From Polytrichum commune (Eukaryota > Streptophyta > Polytrichopsida > Polytrichales > Polytrichaceae): a stretch of 64,000 bases of DNA. The stretch's first letter is position 1, and each line of letters opens with the position of its first letter. Positions 1,835 to 52,178 of the stretch are shown one piece after another. The position numbers and the translations under genes were made by a program. The notes under the pieces were generated by a model, which was not told the DNA's origin, did no database searches, and was given only the letters and a program-made list of their open reading frames with translations. The DNA lies in the NCBI GenBank assembly GCA_950295325.1, contig OX485805.1, forward strand, positions 11,904,501 to 11,968,500. Reading direction: 5' to 3'.

Positions 1835-1865
1835 CTCGGCCGGCACCGGCTGGGGTGCCTCGGCC
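1835..1865. repeat. GC hairpin module, copy 1
   Basis: The module starts with ctcGGCCGGCACC, has the loop GGCTGG, and closes with GGTGCC. The arms GGCACC and GGTGCC pair. In this copy the following TCGGCC extends the stem by four pairs past a two-base bulge. Further copies lie at 2119-2143, 3141-3165, 3575-3599, 4683-4713 and 5057-5086. No known function. Confidence 0.8.
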
Positions 1866-1904
1866 AACAGCCACCGAACTCACCGAACTCACCTGCAACA
1901 TACA

Positions 1905-1945
1905 TTCGAAGGATCAAAAAGCAACGTCGCTATGAACGCTTGGCT

Positions 1946-1988
<43 letters not shown>

Positions 1989-2113
1989 AGCTTCAAATTC
2001 CGAAAGACTAAAGGATCGATAGGCCATGCATTCACAGTTTGTATTCGTAATCAAAATCAAAATCAAATGAGCTTTTACCCTTCTGTTCCACACGAGATTT
2101 CTGTTCTCGTTGA
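1905..2113 (-). rRNA. 25S rRNA pseudogene fragment A, copy 1
   Basis: The reverse complement matches the conserved 3' part of plant 25S rRNA, around the region that encodes the 'GGCTTGTGGCAGCCAAGCG' stretch. Many positions that are CG in normal 25S read TG or CA here, the mark of a methylated, unexpressed copy. The translated ORF seen here is a well-known annotation artefact of antisense rDNA. Confidence 0.85.
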
Positions 2114-2118
2114 AGGGC

Positions 2119-2143
2119 CTCGGCCGGCACCGGCTGGGGTGCC
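2119..2143. repeat. GC hairpin module, copy 2
   Basis: Exact copy of the 25-bp module. It joins 25S fragment A to fragment B in the reverse of their natural order, with short 'aggg' and 'accgcg' linkers. Confidence 0.8.
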
Positions 2144-2149
2144 ACCGCG

Positions 2150-2153
2150 CATG

Positions 2154-2207
<54 letters not shown>

Positions 2208-2300
2208 ATTGGTGGGTGAACAATCCAACACTTGGTGAATTCTGCTTCACAATGATAGGAAGAGACGACATCGAAGGATCAAAAAGCAATGTCGCTATGA
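2150..2300 (-). rRNA. 25S rRNA pseudogene fragment B, copy 1
   Basis: The reverse complement matches the 25S segment lying just 3' of fragment A in normal rRNA (the region reading GTTTAGACCGTCGTGAGAC). It ends in a 34-bp stretch that is repeated at 2924-2957 on the far side of a 623-bp insert. Confidence 0.85.
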
Positions 2301-2492
2301 TAACCATATCTAAATTCACAGAAGTCTTGTTCTCAATCCGATTTCTGCTAATGCTCATATGACAAAAGTTTCAATCTTTTGAAGCTAATTAGTATAAGCT
2401 GAAGAACATGAAAAACGAACCTAACAACACCCACATACCTTGAGCCTTTTGGCTTCTCAGAGTTCTGAATCGATCTTAGTTTCTCGTTAGAT

Positions 2493-2715
2493 CCAATGAA
2501 TGGGGAGAAGTGACTGCCAGTTACAGATGAACTAGTTACGTTCGAGAAATAACTAGTTGCAGTTTGAAGCCTTCAGGAAAATTACCAATCAATTTAGAGG
2601 AATTTGTAGAGCATACCTCAAATTAATATAGGGAAACTGAAAGATCACAACATGTAAAGCGGTTGGACTTTGGAAACACTAGATTTCTCACTGATTATGC
2701 CGAAATCTCCAGGTT
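2493..2715 (-). repeat. Dispersed about 220-bp repeat, copy 1
   Basis: On the minus strand it contains, in order, 'ctagtgtttcc', 'catgttgtgatctttc', 'attcctctaaa', 'ggtaattttcctgaag' and 'tctccccattcattgg'. The same order of blocks occurs at 4763-4977 and 51940-52178 on the plus strand. It has no coding capacity. It could be a SINE, a MITE or an LTR fragment. Confidence 0.65.
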
Positions 2716-2724
2716 AGAACTGAA

Positions 2725-2890
2725 CCTATGTCCAGGAAGAACCGGCAGATGAAACTGTTGAGTTTCAGAAATAATCGGCTGAAGTTCAAGACTTCAGGAA
2801 ATTTACCGATCATTTTAGAGGAATCTATAGAATCTACCTCAACTGAAATGAAAGCAGCAAAACCGGTTGTATTTAGAATCACTAAATCAT
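2725..2890 (-). repeat. Dispersed repeat, copy 2 (partial)
   Basis: The same family as 2493-2715 and directly adjacent to it in the same orientation. It shares 'gattcctctaaaatgatcgg' and the paired 'caaccgg'-type blocks, but is more diverged at its left end. Confidence 0.55.
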
Positions 2891-2923
2891 GTCAACATGC
2901 AACCGGTCTGTCAACATGCAACC

Positions 2924-2967
2924 GACATCGAAGGATCAAAAAACAACGTCGCTATGAACGCTTGGTT

Positions 2968-3010
<43 letters not shown>

Positions 3011-3135
3011 AGCTTCAAATTCCGAAAGACTAAAGGATCGATAGGCCATGCATTCACAGTTTGTATTCGTAATCAAAATCAAAATCAAATGAGCTTTTAC
3101 CCTTCTGTTCCACACGAGATTTCTGTTCTCGTTGA
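2924..3135 (-). rRNA. 25S rRNA pseudogene fragment A, copy 2
   Basis: It covers the same 25S interval and has the same right breakpoint ('ctcgttga') as copy 1. It shares the diagnostic decayed positions with copy 1, so both descend from one already mutated unit. Confidence 0.85.
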
Positions 3136-3140
3136 AGGGC

Positions 3141-3165
3141 CTCGGCCGGCACCGGCTGGGGTGCC
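3141..3165. repeat. GC hairpin module, copy 3
   Basis: Identical to copy 2, including the flanking 'aggg' and 'accgcgc', and again linking fragment A to fragment B. Confidence 0.8.
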
Positions 3166-3171
3166 ACCGCG

Positions 3172-3264
3172 CATGAGTAGGGTAAAACTAACCTGTCTCA
3201 CGATGGTCTAAACCCAGCTCACGTTCCCTATTGGTGGGTGAACAATCCAACATTTGGTGGATTC

Positions 3265-3301
<37 letters not shown>

Positions 3302-3344
3302 AAAAAAGCAACGTCGCTATGAACGTTTGGCTGCCACAAGCCAA

Positions 3345-3375
<31 letters not shown>

Positions 3376-3564
3376 AGCTTCAAATTCCGAAAGACTAAAG
3401 GATCGATAGGCCATGCATTCACAGTTTGTATTCGTACTGAAAATCAAAATCAAATGAGCTTTTACCCTTTTGTTCCACATGAGACTTCTGTTCTCGTTGA
3501 GCTCATCTTAGGACACTTGCGTTACCTTTTAACAGATGTGCCGCCCCAGCCAAACCCACCTGAC
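3172..3564 (-). rRNA. 25S rRNA pseudogene fragments B and A, joined normally
   Basis: Here fragment B runs into fragment A without a break, in the normal 25S order, and continues further towards the 5' side of 25S, past 'gtgccgccccagccaaac'. It keeps some ancestral bases (such as 'gtactgaaaatc') that copies 1 and 2 have lost, so it is the less decayed copy. It ends at 'gacattgaaaaccct' plus a module. Confidence 0.85.
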
Positions 3565-3574
3565 ATTGAAAACC

Positions 3575-3599
3575 CTCGGCCGGCACCGGCTGGGGCGCC
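3575..3599. repeat. GC hairpin module, copy 4 (variant)
   Basis: One T-to-C change turns the closing arm GGTGCC into GGCGCC. It is preceded by 'gacattgaaaacc', much as copy 5 is preceded by 'gacactgaaaacc'. Confidence 0.75.
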
Positions 3600-4577
3600 T
3601 GTCGCAACCCTTGCTAGCCCCCCCTTGACAATCTTGCCAATTTTCAATTCTAGCAAAGGTTACGAGTCGCTAACCCTTCGCATTCCGCCATGCTAATGGA
3701 TAGCTCCTCTTACCCCGGACCAATAGTTCATAGGAGGGAACCAACCCTCCTACTTTGCTTTCGGGACTCACCCCTTAATCGGTAACCCATTTCCCCAATG
3801 TGGACTTCCATCCATGGAAGTCCAATCCTATGTTGATCATCGCGTTGCCGGAGCAACACTACAACAACCCGAACCATACTAGGCAACTATGGCCTCACAA
3901 TAGGCCAAAGCCCATGGAGGCCTTGCCGTTCGGCCTCGGGTGGGTGAGGCCACACCACCTCACCCATATAAGCCTCTAGGACTTCACGCGGGGCCCCTAC
4001 CCCACCGTCAACCAACCTCTTGTCTCCCTACCAAGAGTTGGGGCCAAGTGGACATTTTCCTTTAGCTGCTGGGCCTAGAACCCCCCCAGCAGCTTCAGAC
4101 CATCATAACTTCCTTGTATGATGTCTGATCATAACAACCAACCACTCCATCCTCATCTACGCTTCACGTAGATACCGATGGACTCCTCACTTGCTCCATT
4201 CGAGCAAGTCTTGAGGAAGTTATGCCTGTTTGAACCTTGGCAGTCCCGGGAATCCCTCCCAGGCACTGCTGTACCAGGGCGCTGTCCCGGGACAGCGCCC
4301 CACTCAAATGGCCATAACTCCTAGCTCACACCTCAGATTGAGGTGTTCTTGAGCATTCTAGAATCACCACGCCATGAGCTACGCATAGCTGATGGCCTTA
4401 CCCTTGTGCCTCCTAGTCTTCGTGGATGGGAGGCGTTCCCAACGCCCGGGGACCTCACCCACACTAGGATCACTTGGGCCCTCTCACCAACGGCGCCACA
4501 AGTCCCGGGTGTCACTCCGGGGTCCCCCTTGTGCCCATGGTGTTTCGGGCACTCCTCATGGAGAGGTGCGCGACAGC
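3600..4577. other. Hairpin-rich insert within the rDNA mosaic
   Basis: About 1 kb without a convincing ORF. It lies between two copies of the 25S piece 'gccccagccaaac...ccacctga' (3543-3563 and 4578-4600). I find at least eight short inverted repeats: 3802-3823 (10-bp arms), TGGGTGAGG near 3945-3970 (9), AGCTGCTGGG at 4064-4094 (10), CAGAC(C)ATCAT near 4095-4132 (10 with a bulge), ACTTGCTC near 4190-4210 (8), a perfect 24-bp palindrome at 4277-4300, ACACCTCA at 4328-4346 (8) and GGCGTT at 4432-4446 (6). Its identity is unknown; it may be a structured non-coding repeat or an insertion element. Confidence 0.5.
4277..4300. repeat. Perfect 24-bp palindrome
   Basis: GGGCGCTGTCCC is followed immediately by its own reverse complement. 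Half of the motif (gacagcgcccc) recurs at 4572-4582, where the insert meets 25S sequence. Confidence 0.9.
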
Positions 4578-4625
4578 GCCCCAGCCAAACTCCCCACCTG
4601 AGAATGTCTTCCACCTGGATCGGCC
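4578..4625 (-). rRNA. 25S rRNA pseudogene fragment C
   Basis: The reverse complement matches 25S sequence next to the end of fragment A ('ccaaactccccacctga' and 'atgtcttcc'). Its first 23 bases duplicate 3543-3563. It passes directly into a GA-rich tract. Confidence 0.75.
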
Positions 4626-4762
4626 AGAGAGAGGGAGAGCGAGAGGGAGAGGTAGAGAGAGGGAGAGAGGACACTGAAAACCCTCGGCCGGCACCGGCTG
4701 GGGTGCCTAGGCCAGAGAGAGGGAGAGAGCGAGAGCGAGAGGTAGAAAGAGGGAGAGAGACA
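4626..4762. repeat. GA tracts around hairpin module copy 5
   Basis: Purine tracts at 4626-4672 and 4714-4762 flank a module at 4683-4707, which is followed by 'taggcc'. This is the same tract-module arrangement as at 1708-1865. Confidence 0.75.
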
Positions 4763-4977
4763 ATGTTTGGGGAGATTTTTAGGCATAACCGGTTGAGATC
4801 CTAGTGTTTGCGAGTCCAGCTGGTTATATGTTGACATCATCCGGTTAAATTGGGGTATATTCTATAAATTCCTCTAAAATGATCGGTAATTTTCCTACAG
4901 TCTTGAACTTCAACCGGTTATTTCTCAAACTCAACCGGTTATTTGTAACTAATTGCCGGTTCTCCCCGATCATTGGA
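4763..4977 (+). repeat. Dispersed repeat, copy 3
   Basis: The plus-strand copy contains 'gatcctagtgtttgcgagtcc', 'ttcctctaaaatgatcggt', repeated 'caaccggttatt' and 'ttctccccgatcattgg'. It has the same block order as 2493-2715 and 51940-52178. Confidence 0.7.
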
Positions 4978-5086
4978 GAGAGAGATAGAGAGAAAGAGGT
5001 AGAGAGAGGGAGAGAGGGAAAGAGGCTAAGGGAGATTAGGGAGGGTCTGTAAAGGGTCGGCCGGCACCGGCTGGGGTGCCTCGGCC
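4978..5086. repeat. GA tract and hairpin module copy 6
   Basis: A purine tract (4978-5044), then 'gggtctgtaaaggg', then the module at 5057-5080 followed by TCGGCC, so the longer hairpin of copy 1 is also possible here. The downstream 'gccaccgaactgcacctgc' resembles the flank of copy 1. Confidence 0.75.
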
Positions 5087-5149
5087 AGTAGCTCCCTCAG
5101 CCACCGAACTGCACCTGCTGCCGAACAAAGCTCCCTCAGCTGCCGGTTT

Positions 5150-5176
5150 AGGCTGAGGTTTAGGGTTTGGGTTTAG
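5150..5176 (+). repeat. Short interstitial telomere-like repeat
   Basis: 'ggtttagggtttgggtttag' is about three degenerate units of the plant telomere repeat TTTAGGG, placed between the module region and the 117-bp array. Too short to indicate a real telomere end. Confidence 0.5.
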
Positions 5177-5211
5177 ACTATACTATAAGCGATAATTTAT
5201 CGCGGACGGGG

Positions 5212-5712
5212 AGGCCAGCCGGCACCAGCGGGGTATCTCAGTCACCTGGACATGCGGGGGTATCTCTGTCGCCTGAAAATGAAAAACTAAATTTCGGTTC
5301 CTGCAACTACAAAAATTTTGCCACCAAGAGGGCAGCCGGCACCGGCGGGGTATCTCAGTCACCTGGACGTGCGGGGGTATCTCTGTCGCCCGAAAATGAA
5401 AAACTAAATTTCGGTTCCTGCAACTACAAAAATTTTGCCACCAAGAGGGCAGCCGGCACCGGCGGGGTATCTCACTCACCTGGACGTGCGGGGGTATCTC
5501 TGTCGTCCGAAAATGAAAAACTAAATTTCGGTTCCTGCAACTACAAAAAATTTGCCACCAAGAGGGCAGCCGGCACCGGCAGGGTATCTCACTCACCTGG
5601 ACGTGCGGGGGTATCTCTGTCGCCTGAAAATGAAAAACTAAATTTCGGTTCCTGCAACTACAAAAATTTTGCCACCAAGAGGGCAGCCGGCACCGGCGGG
5701 GTGTCTAGAGCG
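5212..5712. repeat. 117-bp tandem repeat, about four copies
   Basis: The anchor 'gaaaatgaaaaac' recurs at 5275, 5392, 5509 and 5626, exactly 117 bp apart. Each unit holds 'gccggcaccggcggggt', a shortened form of the hairpin module, plus 'atttcggttcctgcaac'. Since 117 is 39 codons, both strands stay open through the array (plus 5167-5724). I read that as a consequence of the period, not as a gene. Confidence 0.85.
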
Positions 5713-6500: not shown

Positions 6501-7165
6501 TCTGATCTCGCTCACTACAAATTACTTCAGATTGCTCTTATATGATTTAAAGGTCTACATTTTCGAGCCTTAGAAGACTCTTCTTAAACCCTAAACCCAT
6601 TTATTACATTTCAAAATATACTTTATTACCTGGGAAGATTTTAACGACTACCGAAATCCATCCATTCTCTGAATTATTCCAGCGGGTTTTTAACCATATA
6701 TAGATGAACATGTGGATCATCCATGCTGGACCTAGATACCATGCGTCTGACGTCTACCATTAAACTCGGCTGGCTGCGTTGTATTATAGAGCCTGCGCCG
6801 TCAAAGCCCACGTCTTATTCCAGTCAATTTCTAATTCCGAAGCCCACGTCTTATTCCACTCAATGTCTGACATGTCAAGTTGCTCATTTCAAGCTGCGGG
6901 CAATTAATGCATATCGTTGTTGAGAGTTTCATATTAATGCATATCCATTTTTTAATTGCGATTCCTTACCACGTTTCACAGTAATTATAATTATTTAGGC
7001 TGATGTATACCACCACATGATTAGACAAAGTTTGGTAGCCTGGATTCAGGGTATCCCTAAACCGGTGTTTTGGCGCTTATAAATTTCAGAACTCTCGCTT
7101 CAGATCGTCTCTTGAATTCCCTCTTTGATCCAATCTCTTCTTCTTCCTCTGTTGTTTACGGTTCA
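6501..7165. promoter_or_regulatory. Divergent intergenic region
   Basis: It separates the candidate minus-strand gene (start 6500) from the plus-strand MULE-like gene (start 7166). It holds the telo-box motifs near 6580. A direct repeat 'agcccacgtcttattcca' occurs at about 6805 and 6841. No mapped promoter for the plus gene. Confidence 0.35.
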
Positions 7166-10100
7166 ATGGCCTTCATTCGTGTTGATTCGCATTCTGTGCC
7201 TGTTACGTTTCCTTTGGGTGCGAATGGTTATGCCATCGTTAGCTCAACTACGCTTAGTCTGAGGTTCCAATTTCGTGAAGATGCACTGTATGTCGAGGAG
7301 GAGGTTTTTGACAATGACTCTGGAATCCTCTTGCACGCAATTGGTCAGTTGCATAGTACGAACGATGCCGGTATGTTTTGGTCGCTTAAACCCGGAAAGT
7401 ATCGAGCATACGGACTTCCTGATTCTGTTATGCCTGCTTCCACTAAAATACTCGCTCCTCGACAGTCGTCCACTGTTAGCATTGATCCCTTCGTTCCTAT
7501 ACAAGTCAAAGTAGAACCTGATCATCATACCATCCATAACCTCAGTGACGATTCTGATAGTGAGGACGTCCTTGTTTCAGACTCAAATTTGTTTGAGACA
7601 AGTACCCCTGTGCAGCCCTCCGCTTTAGCATTCATTCGTGCTGATGATCATCCTGTACCAGTCACTTTTCCAGTTGGTCTTGTTGGTTATGCCACCGTCA
7701 GTGAGCGAAGTCTTGCTCTCCAATTTCTGTTCAAAAAGGAGTCTGTCCACATTGAGGAAGAAATTTTTGAATCCAAATCCCCTCAAGCTAGTCAAAGTAT
7801 TGGACAACTCTCTTTCAGGAATGATGACGGGAAGGTTTGGTTCTTGAAGCCAGGAAAATTTCGGGCCTACGGAATCTCTATTTCTCTCATGGATGCATCT
7901 ACCGAGTTACTTACTTCCAGAGAGTCGTCCATGTCATCCGTTCAGACACCATCTCTTAGAAAAGTGAAGATTGAGCCTGGACTCCGTACTATCTATGAAT
8001 TGAGAGACTCTTGCCCTCTTCCAAATGTCAATGTCAGCCACATGTTTGAGAAATATAGCACAAAATATCTACCCAAAGACCCCGATTCACAACCTATTGG
8101 CAATTCTACTGGCAATTCTACTAGCAAGTCTACTAGTGTCATAGATTCACTGAAACAACTTGCATCCAGAAAAAGGTCAAAGAACGTTCTTTCCAAAATC
8201 GATTATGATACCATTACAATAGAGAGGGTTGAGTACCTCCCGCCTACATTTGACGGAGATATCATTTTTGAATTTCCGCCACTCGGCTGTCACGCTAGGC
8301 AGACTGTAGCGAAACAACTTCGTGGTATGGACAAACGTTTCGATGGCCACGCCTGGACCCGAACTATCACGTCCAACATCTCTAACGATTTTGGTCTCAC
8401 TTTTCGAACCTCTTCTTGTTTAGGTCATTTGCGGTGCGATAATGTTGACTGTGAGTTCCTTACTCGAGTACACCGCACCACACCTATTAATGAAACGGAG
8501 TGGGAGGGCAACTCATCTTTGCCCTTTGAGTGTGGTACCGTGCCTCCCAAGGATTCAACCATCGTCTGTTCCATTTGTAAGGTTTCGCCGAGTTGTGTTG
8601 CCTTGTGTCCGGCTAGGATTTATTATGTAGTTGGATCAGAATCTATGTCTCGGGCTTGTATTCACTTCGGAATCCATGCCCATCCGGTCAAAACTGGTGA
8701 TTATCGCGACTCCATTGAGCATACTACCAGCTTCCTGAGTGAACAAATTCAAAGCACTCCTACAGCTACCAACTCCGCTTTAGTTTTGGAAGCTAGCAAA
8801 GACTTAGTTGGAGACATGCTCCTAGCGCCTGAGGGTTCACAACCAAAATCCCTCTCTGTAGATGACCTCCTGCCTTTGTTTGATCGTTGTAAGCACCTTA
8901 CTTCGCCTAGCATCCGTAATACTGTATCGGGTTTCAAATACATCCGTAGATTTGGGGTTATGGATAGCATCACCAAATTTCGTGGGTCAAGCAACTGGCC
9001 TTATGTCCAAGAGAACAAGTTTCCAGGCCAAGGAGCGGAAACTGACAAGGTCTTTGTGTTCAAAATGTCTGAGGTAGGACCGGGTAGTGGAGTCGACCTC
9101 GTGAAACGGATGCAAGCCGGTGGAGACCTCGAAAACGCCTGGCTCATGTTTGACCATGTTAAGCGTGTGCAAAGTTGGACTACAATGGCGTGCCATGTTT
9201 ATGATGTCATCTTTTGTCGAGTAATGACCATTGCCGTTTGCGACATGCAATCCGAGGACACCGCTGCTCAAATTGTGGTTTGGAAAAACCTCAACGCTGT
9301 TATGGCTCGCCACAACGTTTCTCAACCAAACTTCAAAGGGTTTATGGCAGATAGCGCTCAAGCCAATTGGAATGCTATCCGTATTGTCTACGGAAACGGA
9401 GATGCATCTATGCCCATGGAAAACAAGGAGAGAACGTGCCTCTTTCACTGGACTCAGTCCCTCGAGAAGCACACAAAGGCCTACATTGGACTCGACCTTC
9501 AAGATCAGCACCAATTGCTTTGCAAGCAATACAAGAACGCCAAGACCATTTCTGAAGCTGAAATGCGCTACCTTGCCATTTGCGCGTGGTGGCTTTCGTC
9601 CGGTGCCGCATTTGAGGATGCCATATCCCGACTCGACATCTGGCTTGCTTTTTGGCATTTCCGCTACCGCCAATGGGGTGGCTTCATGCAATTGGTAAGT
9701 TCTTCGCTCATTGAACGTGTACCCATCCATTGATAAAGCAATCGTCAATCGTCTCCTACATGTTTCCTAATCGATTCTTTCTAAACTCCTTCTCCATAGG
9801 ACTTGAACGAAGTTGAGTTGGCTGAAATGCCTTCGTGCAATTTGGCCGAGACCGTGCACAATAAGTGGCTCCAACAATCCGGCCACCGTGGTAAGGATTT
9901 ATACGTTGCAACAATTGATGACTACATGCGCGTATTTATGCAATGTGTCTCGTACTACCAGTACTTAAAAGGAGATCGTGTTGGTACTGGCCCGTCCAAG
10001 GAAGAGCTGAAGTTACGTGCCGCACAACGTTCTTCGGAGATTACCGGCAACACCAAGTCCCTTCACGAAGCAATGACTAGAATGCCCGGAGCGCAAGAGT

Positions 10101-11269
10101 TTTGCATCCGCACGCCACACTTAGAAGATGAAGAAGTTTTCCTATCCTTGAAACGGAAGGCTGACCTTCCTCCAGGTTCGGAACTTGACTCTCACCGACC
10201 TGACAAGATCTCCATCTCTCGTCCCCGAGTGCAAACGCGGTCTTCCATCAAAAACTCTCAAACGGCCTCACCAACCGCTGATTCAGAATCTCCTGAAACG
10301 TTTGCAACTCCAATTGCGCCGCAACAATCGAACGGCAATACTCGAGTAAGTGATGTCACCCCACTTTCTCCTTTGCAGCATGTTACAGCAGTTCAAGAAT
10401 CCGCTTGTGACGAAAGTAAGTGGCACATCGCACGTCTTCCTAAGACGTCTGCAAAGGCTTGCTTTGCTATACAAGCGATGACAAAGAAGAAGTGTGTGGC
10501 CCGTATTGTTCAAGACGGGAAGAGTACCGCTGCGCCAACGTACACCGGGATGATGACCAATTACCGAAAGAATAAGCAAGAACTCTTGCAATTCTTCTTT
10601 TGTAACGATGATATTGAAAGGTGTGTTAAAGGAACTCGCAGGAAGTGGGTTATATCAAGGCCTGAAGTCCCTGAGACTTGGCCTGTCAAGATGGGGACAA
10701 ACCTTTCCCGCAAGGAGATCCTCCAATTGGAGACTATTGGATTTCGCCTTCCTCAACGACAAGAAATCTCTCCAAGACGATTGTTCCAAGACAACCTCTC
10801 CCACGTGGACTTGACATCGTATATTACTCCGGCATCTCCGGATGAGTTCCCCAAGCGCAGGTCCGGGAAGAATATCCGTCACATGAGTAAGGCCCCTTCC
10901 ACACGTCACGCCAACAACTGCGCCTCTGCTCTCATGTTAAAAGCTTGCATTCGCAACATTAGCATGGTCCCTGCCCCAGCTCTTGGTTGTATTGTTACCT
11001 TGGATTCTGGTTCTCCTCCCAATATCCACCAGTACCACTTGACTATTTCTCAGCTTCCGGCGTGCACTTGTCACAATTTCAAGGAAATGGCAACCAAGGC
11101 ACTTGGAAAGCGCGGTCAGTGGGCCAATTGTAAGCACCTATACTATGTGTTTACGATAATTTGTGGACTTGATCCTGATTCTGATACTTTTATTCATACT
11201 GCTAGTTTTAGCTTTAATGAGGTCAAGCAAATCCTTCAGAGTGGATTGTTGACCCAGACAACCTCTTAG
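7166..11269 (+). CDS. MULE-type transposase-like protein with SWIM zinc finger, 2 exons
   Basis: Exons 7166-9694 and 9800-11269 join in phase 0 to give 1,332 residues with no internal stop. The frame is open upstream to 7070, but 7166 is the first ATG. Domains: two copies of a domain starting F-I-R-x-D-x-H-x-V-P-V-T-F-P (about residues 3-95 and 156-245); a Cys/His region, C-D-N-V-D-C near 420 and H-F-G-I-H-A-H near 500, like WRKY-GCM1/FLYWCH fingers of MULE proteins; a MULE-like core with candidate acidic residues D663 (M-F-D-H) and D729 (M-A-D-S), then R-T-C-L-F-H-W, the family's C-x2-H mark; and a SWIM finger near 1265 (C-T-C-H...N-C-K-H). The third catalytic acid was not placed. Known relatives cut and paste DNA or, when domesticated as FAR1/FHY3-like proteins, regulate transcription in the nucleus. 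I saw no terminal inverted repeats, so either role is possible. The N-terminal duplicated domain is not one I recognise. Confidence 0.75.
9695..9799 (+). other. Intron of the MULE-like gene
   Basis: 105 bp from GTAAGT to a pyrimidine-rich ...CCATAG. Removing it joins two long frames in phase 0 with continuous sequence, which strongly supports it. A retained intron would add a stop at about 9731. Confidence 0.8.
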
Positions 11270-27689: not shown

Positions 27690-27765
27690 CCAGATGAGGC
27701 AAGTCTTCAACTTCAACCGATTGTTTTTCGAACTTAACCGGTTCATCTGCAATTAACCACCCGTT
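27690..27765 (+). repeat. Dispersed repeat, partial copy
   Basis: 'caagtcttcaacttcaacc' followed by 'aaccggttcatctgcaa' matches the right half of the family seen at 51940-52178. Confidence 0.55.
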
Positions 27766-27796
27766 CTTCGCTAAACAAGGCATTACATGCGATGAC

Positions 27797-37697: not shown

Positions 37698-39595
37698 ATG
37701 GAGTCGCCACCACTACCAGCACCAGAACCAGCGAAGGACACAACACCAGAAGCGCCGCGCAAGCTGATTGCTAACATCCCAGACACAGTGCTTGCCACTC
37801 TCAGGTCCACCTGCGCGGCGAAAGCAGAGGTGTCACTCCTTGGTAGAATCCATGGTAAACACCCTGGGCTCAAAGCTCTCACAGCTTGGGCCAGGGCTAC
37901 ATTACATCCCTCCCTTTTTTTCCGTTAAAGACTAATAACTTGTTTGAAGTGACGTTTGCTCACCCAGAAGGAAGAATACACGCATTGACGCAGGCAGATC
38001 TTGTCTGCGACACGGCGGCCATCTTTTTTTCTAGCTGGCGGCCTCACTTCGACTCCTCAGGTCCACAAGTGGAAAAAAACTTGGACCACCCAGTGTGGGT
38101 CCAAATCGTTGATCCATGCCAAGTGCTGCGGGAGGACTACTTCTTGAAACTCATCGGTGAGCAAATTGGACACGTCATTTCGATCGACAATTCTGAGGCT
38201 TACCGAGCCAAACTCCAAGAATTCGGTTGTTGGTCCGAGACCTACATCAGCTCCCGCAAACTGTGGTTATCCCGCGTCTGGATGGGGAAGGGACTATTGA
38301 GTACCAGTTGGAGTTCAGTGGGTTACCCAAGCAGTGCGGAAGGTGTCGCGCACATGATCACTTGGTTAGGAACTGTCCCAAGAGAGCACCACCGGTGAGA
38401 AAGAAAGAAGGGCTCAGTAGAAGCAGGACAGCAGACTTCAAGAAGGAATCACCTAAAGAGTCAGAGTTAGAGATGACACCGATGAGCAAGAATCCCATTC
38501 TGACTCAACCACGCCAAGAACACATGCATCACCACGGCAACTCACTGGAGGATAGCAGTTCTACACTTCCAGACACAACAGGTTCGCAGGAACTGTCTCA
38601 AAACTTACCTGATCTCCAGCACATGCCCTGTTGTCCCATCCGTGCAGGAGCAGAACACACGCTTCCTAGTAAAGAAGCGCTCTCCATCCCTTCAAGTGAA
38701 GACAAAGACCATCTGTCAGGTGGGCAAGCAGAGTTCAACACACTTGAACCAGATGATATCAACTTCCCTAAACTGCAGACACCCCTATCTGCAAACAGAG
38801 GCACAACTGCAAACCAAACTTCGGACATCTCCAGCAAGAACCAAGAACCTAAGTTTGTATGGCAGTCGGCACATTTCACAACACGTACCGGTGCATAAGG
38901 TGACAGAAAGAGGCAGGGGAAAGGAAAAGCTCACAGAATCAACGCCCCTTACTCGACAGGGGTATCGCTCTGGACGCCTCGCGGAGGACTTCTGGTCCGC
39001 ACTTGGTATGCCCAACACCCCTTCTGCAAATCCAAAGATGCTTAGGGTAATTCCATTTCTCACGAAGGACCGCAACACTGAGCAACCAGAATACCTGGTT
39101 GACAAGAGGGGGCAATCCTTTGGGGCAATCACCTATGTGCATATTGTTGAGGTCCTCACAGGCATCCCATGGACACAGAGTAGAGCCAGACAACACGTGG
39201 TCAATGAAGTGTCCCAGGCCATGCATAAAATCCTCATATTCAACAACAACATGTCAAACCCCTTCCAAAAGTGGGAGCAAGGACGTTGGTTTGCACAATG
39301 GGAGCAGGGCACAGATGGGGAATTCATATGTACCCTATTCGTGAGCATCGATACACCAGAGCACAAGGTGAAACCACGAAAGGGCTTCCATATGGCATGG
39401 CGCAGAGAACCAGCAGAAGTGTCGTCAATACTTGCAACACAATTAACAGAAGAGTTACATGCTGTTGAATCCACCCAAACCCACTGGAAAAGGATGGCCG
39501 GAAGGTTACCTGGGAAGAACACCGAGCAATACGCTCCAGAAATGCACAACCGCTTCGCGACTCTATTGGAGGACGAAGCAGCTTCGAAGCAGTAA
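37698..39595 (+). pseudogene. LINE ORF1 (gag-like, zinc knuckle), frameshifted
   Basis: ATG at 37698 sits inside a 14-bp palindrome, CTCCATCGATGGAG. Three frames must be joined, with shifts near 37900, 38225 and 38880. The readable protein has a P/A-rich start, a DUF4283-like domain (F-E-V-T-F, V-W-V-Q-I), a zinc knuckle C-G-R-C-R-A-H-D-H-L-V-R-N-C at about 38335-38380, a polar linker, and a C-terminal domain of about 220 residues ending at 39595 (H-M-A-W-R-R-E, W-K-R-M-A-G-R-L-P-G). In L1-like plant LINEs this protein binds the element's RNA. The C-terminal domain is not one I recognise. Confidence 0.7.
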
Positions 39596-39614
39596 CCTAC
39601 CCCAACCCCCCATC

Positions 39615-42600
39615 ATGAAAGGTGACCGATTAACAATCGCCACGCAGAATGCTAGAGGCCTGGGGCAAGGACTAGCAGGACGGAGAAAACGAAAGGAATT
39701 GAAAAGCATATTTCAATCAACCACACCACCTACGGATGTTCTCCTATTACAGGAAACCAAACTACTTGAAGAGGCATGCCTTAGACAAGCAAGATACATC
39801 GAATTTCGAGGGGGTATCAACTTGTGGAACGAAGGTTCCTTTTCAGTGCTATCAGGCAGGTTCAAGGGAGGAACAGGTATTGTTCTGTCGGAAAGGATTG
39901 CCTCATCTGTAACACACCATGGCATCTTATACCCAGGTCGAGCTCAGTATGTAATCTTGAAACTCAGCTCAGTCTTCCATTTAGGTATTATCAATGTATA
40001 TGCCTTTAGCCACACTGGACCCAGGGCAATGTTGTGGAATCACTTAGCAAACGCCACACTACCTGAGGCCCAATGGATTCTCGCTGGGGACTTCAATAAT
40101 ATTGAACACCCAAGGGACAAGCAAGGTGGGTCCACAAAAACTAGTATCAGCACAAGGGAGTTGGAAGTTTGGACCCAGCTACTTACCAGATTGGGAGTGC
40201 AGGACGCCTTCAATCTAGGCACATTTTACCGAAAAACTGAGAAGGCCTTTACTTGGACGAATGCTCACAATGATGAATCAATGATTCAATCGCGAATTGA
40301 CAGGGTATACGTCCCTACCTACATAGAACGTATTGGGGGCACTACAGAAATACTTCCCACGCTTCCGGACATTTCTGACCATGCTGGTTATGTAGTGCAC
40401 TTCAATGATGAAGGGAAACCAAAGACAAGACATCATCCCTTTAACAAAGGCCTGCTCAAAAATCCCGAGCACAAATTAGCTCTGCTCCAGGTTTGGAAAG
40501 AAGCTATGGATGATGACACACTACCCACATGGAACCAGAAAATGGTGATTGCAAACCAAGCAATCCGCCTCAAGTCGATAGAACTCACGAAAGCTCAAAA
40601 ATAGCAATGGAAAACCACATACCTTGCACAATTCGAGGACATCGTAGCTGCAGAGGAAGAGTTGCAACGGAATTGGGGGTCCAGAGAAGCGCGGAATCGG
40701 CTAAGTGATGCACAAGCGGCATTACATGAAGTTAGACAGCAAAAGTTTCAGTTCCAGGAGAGCGCCATTCTCTCGAAATGGGCCAGAGTGGGGGATCGTT
40801 GTACAAAGGAATTCTTTGAGCATCACATGGGTACAAGACGCCCTACTGCTATCAAACAAATGAAGGATGGGGACCGCTTACTGACCTCACAAGCAGACCT
40901 GGAATCCCATATTCTCAACTTCTATGAACAGCTATATGCTAAAGACACAGAAGTAGAGCTCAACGTGGCTGCGAGAGAGGACTGCCTTCAATTCATTCAA
41001 CAGACAGTCACGGAGGAACACAATCTAGAACTCCTACGCCCCCTCACCATGGAGGAAGTGACCGACGCTTTGAAACAATTACCAGCAAGGAAGTCACCAG
41101 GGGTAGATTCTATACCTTCTGAATTCTACCAAGAGTTGTGGGCAGATATAGAACTCGATATCTTTCACTTCGTTTCCAAGTCAATTCAGCAATGCTCCTT
41201 GGCGGCAGAGTTAAACGTTAGTAAAATTGCTCTGTTGCCGAAGTCGGAGGATAGGCTTCGAGTTCAGAATTATAGACCGATTTCCCTATCGACAACCCTT
41301 TACAAAATAGTGGCCAAAGTCTATGCTAATAGGATGAAGCCCCTCTTGCATAACTGGATCTTACCATCCCAGACAGGGTTTGTTCCCAATAGGTGCATAC
41401 TCGATAATATTTTTTTGGCCTTTGAAACAATAGCATGGACAAGGGAAAGCCAACAAGAACTTAGCATGCTTTTACTGGATTTCGAGAAAGCTTACGATAG
41501 AGTGAACTGGACATTCTTGAGGGAGGTGATGGCGAAGATGGGATTTCATACCACATGGATCAAGCAAGTGATGTCCCTCAATGAAAATGCATCGGCATCA
41601 GTCATTGTCAACGGGGAAATTTCAAAAACCTTTCGCCTACAAAGATCGATGCGACAAGGCTGTCCGCTCGCTCCTTATCTCTTTCTCCTTACAGTTGATG
41701 TACTCGGCCAAATGTTACAGCACGCAAGGTGTGGCGTTCAAGGGCTACGACTCCCGGATAATACAACCATAATTAACCAAATGTTTGCCGACGACACGAT
41801 GTTGCTGCTTGATGGTACAAGAGATAATCTGGATAGGGCCCTTAACGTCATCAACAGATTTGGTGCGGCCTCGGGAGCCAAATTAAATCTGCACAAGTCA
41901 ATAGGGTTGTGGTTAGCCTCTCGACCACGAGATTGGCAATGGGGAGAAGAAGCTGGTTTAAAATGGTTGGAAAGGGGGGAGATCACTAGATACCTGGGCT
42001 ACCCATTCGGGCTGGATATTCCATAGAAGGAGAAGGACGCCAAGATGCTCGGTCAAATCAGGAAACATCTTCTCCGTTGGTAAGCCAATAAGCTCTCCCT
42101 CGCAGGCAGGATCATGGTCTCAAATCAGGTTGTACTCTCATCAATTTGGTACCTGGCTTCATGCACGGATTTCTCTGGAAAATCCCTCAAGCTAGCTAGA
42201 GCCGCAGTTAGAAACTATATGTGGTCAGGAAAGCTGGATGCAAGAGCAAGAGCAAGAGTGAAGTGGAGTACTGCTGTCTTACCAATTGTGCGCGGCGGAG
42301 TAAAAATCTTGGACCCGGAATGGCAAACCTCAGCCCTCTTAGTGAAATTACTCATACGAGGTATGTCGGTAGGATACGAACCATGGAAAACATTGGTGAG
42401 GCACCGGGTAGCACAAACTAAACAGTCCAGGCGAGGGAGATGGCCAGCACACGCTAATTGGATAATGAACTCTGCACATTTAGTCCACCAAGGGTCACAA
42501 ATGTGGCAGGGGGTTATGAGAGCATGGAGCACAATTCAATCCGGATTGGAACAACAAGATCCACAAAGTTGGTCAGAAATCGCTAGACAACCTTTGTTAA

Positions 42601-51939: not shown

Positions 51940-52178
51940 GTTCAGTGTCTGGGGAATTTTTTTTGCACATAATCGGTGAAAATCCTAGTGTTTCCAAGTC
52001 CAACTGCTTACATACATGTTGTGATCTTTCGGTTTCTCTTTATGAATTCGAGGTATATTCCGGCATGGATTCCTCTACAACGACGGTAATTTTCCTGAAG
52101 TCTTGAACTTCAACCGGATGTTTCTCAAAGTCAACCGGTTCATCTGTAACTAGCGCCCGGTTGTCGCCGTTCATTGAT
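51940..52178 (+). repeat. Dispersed repeat, copy 5
   Basis: The most complete plus-strand copy: 'tggggaatttttt', 'gaaaatcctagtgtttcc', 'catgttgtgatctttcgg', 'ggtaattttcctgaag', 'cttcaaccgg' and 'ggttcatctgtaactag'. Same block order as 2493-2715 and 4763-4977. Confidence 0.7.

Follow-up and report, generated by a model that had tools for sequence, protein, structure and literature searches.

A recurrent GC-rich hairpin module in a mosaic of 25S ribosomal DNA fragments of Polytrichum commune: probable duplication of the fragment that carries it

Ribosomal DNA (rDNA) pieces amplified in tandem are known from tomato, where excerpts of PMC2679016 describe an rDNA-derived satellite repeat homologous to the intergenic spacer, and short hairpins present in several copies are represented by the mitochondrial double-hairpin and repetitive hairpin-forming elements described in excerpts of PMC2800124 and PMC4478555. 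The locus considered here lies in Polytrichum commune (assembly GCA_950295325.1, contig OX485805.1, positions 11,904,501 to 11,968,500), in a stretch of 64,000 nucleotides (nt) that we call the window and to which all coordinates below refer, and consists of a hairpin-forming module with the core GGCACC-GGCTGG-GGTGCC, found six times among fragments of a 25S ribosomal RNA (rRNA) gene. As in tomato, rDNA pieces have been amplified in tandem, but here it is 25S coding sequence rather than spacer that is repeated, in two to three units set in a mosaic. In contrast to the mitochondrial elements, the module is linked to rDNA, its copies have flanks in common, and a second hairpin accompanies one copy only. 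Most of the pattern is accounted for by duplication of an rDNA fragment that starts at the hairpin, and we consider it fairly probable that the module recurs through ordinary decay and duplication of the fragment carrying it, and not as a new mobile or break-making element.

The module sequence is GGCCGGCACCGGCTGGGGTGCC. The six cores, M1 (1842-1859), M2 (2126-2143), M3 (3148-3165), M4 (3582-3599), M5 (4690-4707) and M6 (5063-5080), lie within 3.2 kilobases (kb); their letters as written match the plus strand, and in the feature list the copies are entered as minus-strand features. The 18-nt core is exact, and the inner stem perfect, in five of them, M4 having a single stem mismatch. When up to three mismatches are allowed, six matches are observed, 100 shuffles giving 0.02 on average and never as many as six, and no further copy occurs elsewhere in the 64-kb window. 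The six near-identical copies proposed in the initial annotation are thus confirmed, and so is their hairpin character for most of them. The optional outer GGCC stem put forward together with the inner one is more restricted, GGCC being present on the left in every copy but on the right only in M1, M5 and M6. Read on the minus strand, all six copies end in GGTGCC-GGCCGA.

The fragments surrounding M2, M3 and M4 follow the order of a 25S gene. A search with the Rfam model LSU_rRNA_eukarya (large-subunit rRNA, LSU) returned 429.1 bits at 3189-3593 on the minus strand, the only rRNA hit at gathering level in the window, and according to this alignment the blocks X, A1 and B1 (3176-3572, minus strand, outer limits read by eye) form one contiguous stretch in natural order. 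Self-comparison revealed two further copies of block A on the same strand, A2 (2923-3135) and the truncated A3 (1906-2113), and sequence comparison a second copy of block B, B2 (2154-2300, minus strand, 35 nt of which overlap the end of block A). Blocks A2 and B2 keep the 25S order around an insertion at 2301-2922, which holds an ACCGGTT-rich dispersed repeat and is bounded by a 35-nt duplication of 25S sequence (self-comparison), whereas A3 is without a B block. The distance from A1 to A2 is 365 nt and that from A2 to A3 is 1022 nt, the excess being the length of the insertion (622 nt) together with that of its duplication (35 nt). Along the minus strand we read the complete order as M6, CT tract, ACCGGTT-rich repeat, CT tract, M5, CT tract, 25S block C, an insertion resembling a long terminal repeat (LTR), M4, X-A1-B1, M3, A2, insertion, B2, M2, A3, spacer, M1 and CT tract; with the insertions taken out, the blocks read M4-X-A1-B1-M3-A2-B2-M2-A3, that is, the 25S order repeated head to tail over two to three units. 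Where copies of A and B differ, transitions mostly outnumber transversions (7 to 3, 6 to 3, 3 to 0 and 3 to 1).

The involvement of rDNA in rearranged blocks, asserted in the initial annotation, is borne out. It had also been claimed that two copies join 25S fragments in a non-natural order through identical linkers; M2 (between B2 and A3) and M3 (between B1 and A2) do join B to A with identical linkers, but since the 25S order is kept head to tail within the units, these joins are boundaries between units. We propose that a 25S rRNA gene fragment was duplicated head to tail and later broken by insertions into a decayed mosaic, in which the module would be one segment of the duplicated unit, devoid of any activity of its own, and would stand at the unit borders because it formed the upstream end of the amplified piece. 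The copies are presumably without function. If this is correct, a motif recurring at apparent breakpoints can stem from a duplicated fragment that starts with that motif.

The flanks of the copies were related to one another by self-comparison. M2 and M3 share 410 nt at 97% identity (1891-2300 against 2914-3322), which establishes their common descent, and because both sit in copies of one duplicated block they stand for a single event. For M1, M4, M5 and M6 a common descent is supported, though less strongly: M1 and M6 match over 146 nt at 77%, M5 and M6 over 99 nt at 76%, M1 and M5 over 84 nt at 83%, M4 and M5 over 39 nt at 95%, and M1 and M4 over 34 nt at 94%; the alignments M1-M5, M5-M6 and M1-M6 take in low-complexity GA tract, which tells to some extent against descent from one fragment. 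M2 and M3 match M1 or M5 over just 26 nt, at 100%. In 14 of the 15 copy pairs ungapped similarity stops 0-7 nt beyond the stem on the right and 3-17 nt beyond it on the left, the exception being M2-M3, where it continues for 217 nt to the left and 154 nt to the right. Four right-hand contexts can be distinguished (M1/M6, M2/M3, M4 and M5, the last keeping 4-5 nt in common with M1 and M6), so that there are about four contexts and not six; the placement at borders noticed earlier is a fair description, but its cases are not independent, given the shared flanks and the single block of M2 and M3.

The abrupt loss of similarity just beyond the right edge of the stem, followed by four different contexts, is what would be expected of a fragile or fork-stalling hairpin, where arrested replication would continue on another template and so join rDNA pieces at the edge of the stem. 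Nevertheless, M2 and M3 represent a single event, M1 and M6 have their right context in common, and the M1-M6 match resumes with gaps on that side, so not all pairs show a clean break at the right edge; moreover, similarity is also lost on the left in the same 14 pairs. Folding provides this explanation with one favorable case, M1 with its left flank (1820-1866), which as DNA forms two adjacent hairpins, the module with its outer GGCC arms and GAGGGT-CTGTAA-ACCCTC (1820-1837), and is far better folded than its shuffles (z-scores of -3.92 on the plus and -4.69 on the minus strand). Values between -0.30 and -1.48 (the others being -0.45 and -1.40) were obtained for M2, with 8 nt of left flank only, and for M4, M5 and M6; they are no better than those of shuffled sequences, or slightly so, and the best fold of M4 differs from the module hairpin. 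By count, the window contains 16 perfect GC-rich hairpins of 6 base pairs (bp), of which five are modules.

The right context of M4 is in turn accounted for by the LTR-like insertion (3600-4575, plus strand, 976 bp), recognized by inspection of its ends and duplication and well supported by them. It begins with TGTCGC, ends with GCGACA and is flanked by a 5-bp duplication, GCGCC. In its TG..CA ends, which form an inverted repeat of 6 bp, and in its target duplication of 5 bp it agrees with the solo LTRs of LTR retrotransposons. The difference is that the element has no internal region and that no second copy was found by self-comparison of the window to prove a family, for which no search was made. 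This pattern of ends and duplication is not rare by itself, 20 shuffled versions of the window yielding 0-5 cases each and the window itself six; the insertion matters because its ends coincide with the borders of M4 and of block C, which it separates from each other. The duplicated GCGCC, the last 5 nt of M4, supplies the mismatched arm of this copy.

With the flanks shared by descent, M2 and M3 traced to one duplication, the 25S order preserved and the M4 arm derived from an insertion, the earlier suggestion that a hairpin or quadruplex stalls polymerase and creates breakpoints does not find confirmation here, and we regard fork stalling as unlikely. The two-layer G-quadruplex potential, suggested for the GG-spaced strand, is not distinctive: motif clusters of this kind number 101 on the plus and 88 on the minus strand of the window. 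A G-quadruplex was accordingly rejected as an active feature of the module.

Inside the LTR-like insertion there is a perfect 24-bp palindrome at 4277-4300, and a 21-nt stretch at 4288-4308 matches, at 86%, the border of the element with 25S sequence (4569-4589). Regarding the other insertion, at 2301-2922, the two copies of its bounding 35-nt 25S duplication are 94% alike, and 35 nt is long for a target duplication.

In the descent from a duplicated 25S fragment proposed above, the module would most likely be the variable hairpin of 25S rRNA that immediately precedes the conserved GACAUUG-CAGGUGGGGAGUUUGGCUGGGGCGG stretch, at a site of the gene just upstream of GACATTGTCAGGTGGGGAG. This hairpin belongs to what we take to be the ES31 region. 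Plant hairpins at this site have a similar layout of outer stem, two unpaired bases, inner stem and GATCC, which we take as a lead and not as a test. Block C (4577-4625, minus strand), located on the other side of the LTR-like insertion, shows 43 identities in 49 ungapped positions when aligned directly with the Rfam LSU consensus, with a score of 68 against a best of 27 among 1000 shuffles, and on this alignment it is 25S sequence, even though the Rfam search of 161 bases did not report it as LSU and it was found only by direct alignment. The block starts within the 3' arm of the consensus hairpin with GGCCGA, in the consensus the end of that arm plus gA, and these are also the letters with which the module ends. 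Furthermore, the GA tract beside C (4626-4670) and the one on the other side of M5 (4714-4760), both delimited by self-comparison and with M5 between them, are 92% identical over 50 nt from the same GGCC onward, which is what loss or gain of the inner hairpin between repeats of GGCC would produce. M4, directly upstream of block X, was aligned with the model hairpin in two of the four covariance searches that included it, the posterior values being modest (4-7 of 10). The module resembles the variable hairpin (expansion segment) of RF02543 in the GGCCGA end and perhaps in the position next to the conserved stretch; the differences are a longer stem region and a neutral covariance score.

Several further observations weigh against this identification. 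The covariance searches of the whole window and of 8 kb matched part of M4 only, and the 8-kb alignment, whose limits agree with those of the whole-window match, places that part elsewhere in the model; the score was 49.9 bits without M4 and 49.3 bits with it, so that the model speaks neither for nor against the hairpin identity. The linker from M4 to CAGG resembles block C no more than shuffles with fixed ends do, 2801 of 5000 of these reaching the observed score, as did 22 of 5000 when everything was shuffled. By eye, the 25S sequence expected upstream of the hairpin precedes none of the module copies. No intact 25S gene from this plant or a relative was retrieved; the search gave two contigs, of which L048 is eukaryotic LSU with a different stretch at the hairpin site and L047 has no LSU match at gathering level, and an rRNA-like fragment printed in an excerpt from the literature carries a different hairpin. 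On these grounds we give the module about an even chance of being the variable 25S hairpin of this organism.

Should the module not belong to the gene, it could be a piece of the rDNA intergenic spacer joined to 25S fragments, as such spacers typically contain GC-rich hairpins and short repeats and M1, M5 and M6 adjoin GA tracts and non-25S sequence. The tracts next to M1 (1714-1817) and M6 (4976-5025) were taken from the repeat listing. However, GGCCGA and the adjacency of the module to X agree with the 25S gene itself, and a spacer origin seems to us distinctly unlikely. We also think it unlikely that rDNA leaving its array as copies breaks preferentially at the variable 25S hairpin, with decayed fragments starting there throughout the genome; if the hairpin did set breakpoints, it would offer a testable cause for the scatter of rDNA pieces in plant-like genomes.

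Near-identical cores in differing contexts, and the two adjacent hairpins of M1, might also suggest a small mobile hairpin element, like the organellar double-hairpin or repetitive hairpin-forming elements, that has spread in the nucleus. Yet among M1, M4, M5 and M6, folded with their left flanks, the second hairpin is seen in M1 and absent from the other three; the copies share flanks, none beyond the six was detected at the above threshold, and no target duplication around them was seen by eye. Such an element is therefore highly improbable. A viral or bacterial origin of the module was likewise rejected: a 17-nt core matches 46 viral contigs with a mean GC content of 0.63 (lowest 0.55), but the full 22-nt sequence is present in none of them, with two mismatches in seven and three to five in 39, and these matches were taken as chance in GC-rich DNA. 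A plasmid search with the 25S blocks gave 367 records at 60-80% identity, the 20 listed being bacterial or archaeal, which we take as conserved rRNA and uninformative on origin. The non-LSU Rfam matches (MIR8032, NEAT1_2 and others) were below gathering scores and were also taken as chance. The passages of PMC10281867, PMC2206039 and PMC6567227 contain nothing on this hairpin, and the module letters turned up in an excerpt of one paper on human LINE-1.

A 117-bp tandem repeat on the plus strand (5211-5706, 4.2 copies, from the repeat listing and alignment) has one arm in common with the module and had been described as containing five shorter derivatives of it. The partial sharing of sequence holds: GCCGGCACCGGC-GGGGT is exact in three of the five units (5221-5706), from which the remaining two differ by a single change each, and in one unit 17 letters agree with a portion of the module if a gap of one base is allowed, a score reached by one of 2000 shuffles. 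The hairpin does not hold, the 3' arm GGTGCC being absent within 30 nt in all five units and one folded unit having a z-score of +0.57. The units were rejected as hairpin derivatives for want of this arm; a distant relation to the module is likely from the shared letters, and hairpin formation by the units is not likely.

The ACCGGTT-rich repeat of the mosaic belongs to a dispersed family found in both orientations, at 2494-2842, 4761-4975 (by self-comparison a second copy, inverted relative to 2301-2922), 27701-27767 and 51943-52176. Among eight translations from the window, three matched Pfam (two reverse transcriptases and one endonuclease domain) and five did not. Endonuclease and reverse transcriptase frames at 39459-42026 indicate an element resembling a long interspersed nuclear element. 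Two long open frames at 7070-11269 have no Pfam match, and their pattern resembles that of a transposase with a SWIM-type zinc finger. The frame at 12660-13787 matches the reverse transcriptase domain RVT_1 of Pfam, and we take it to resemble a Ty3-type element.

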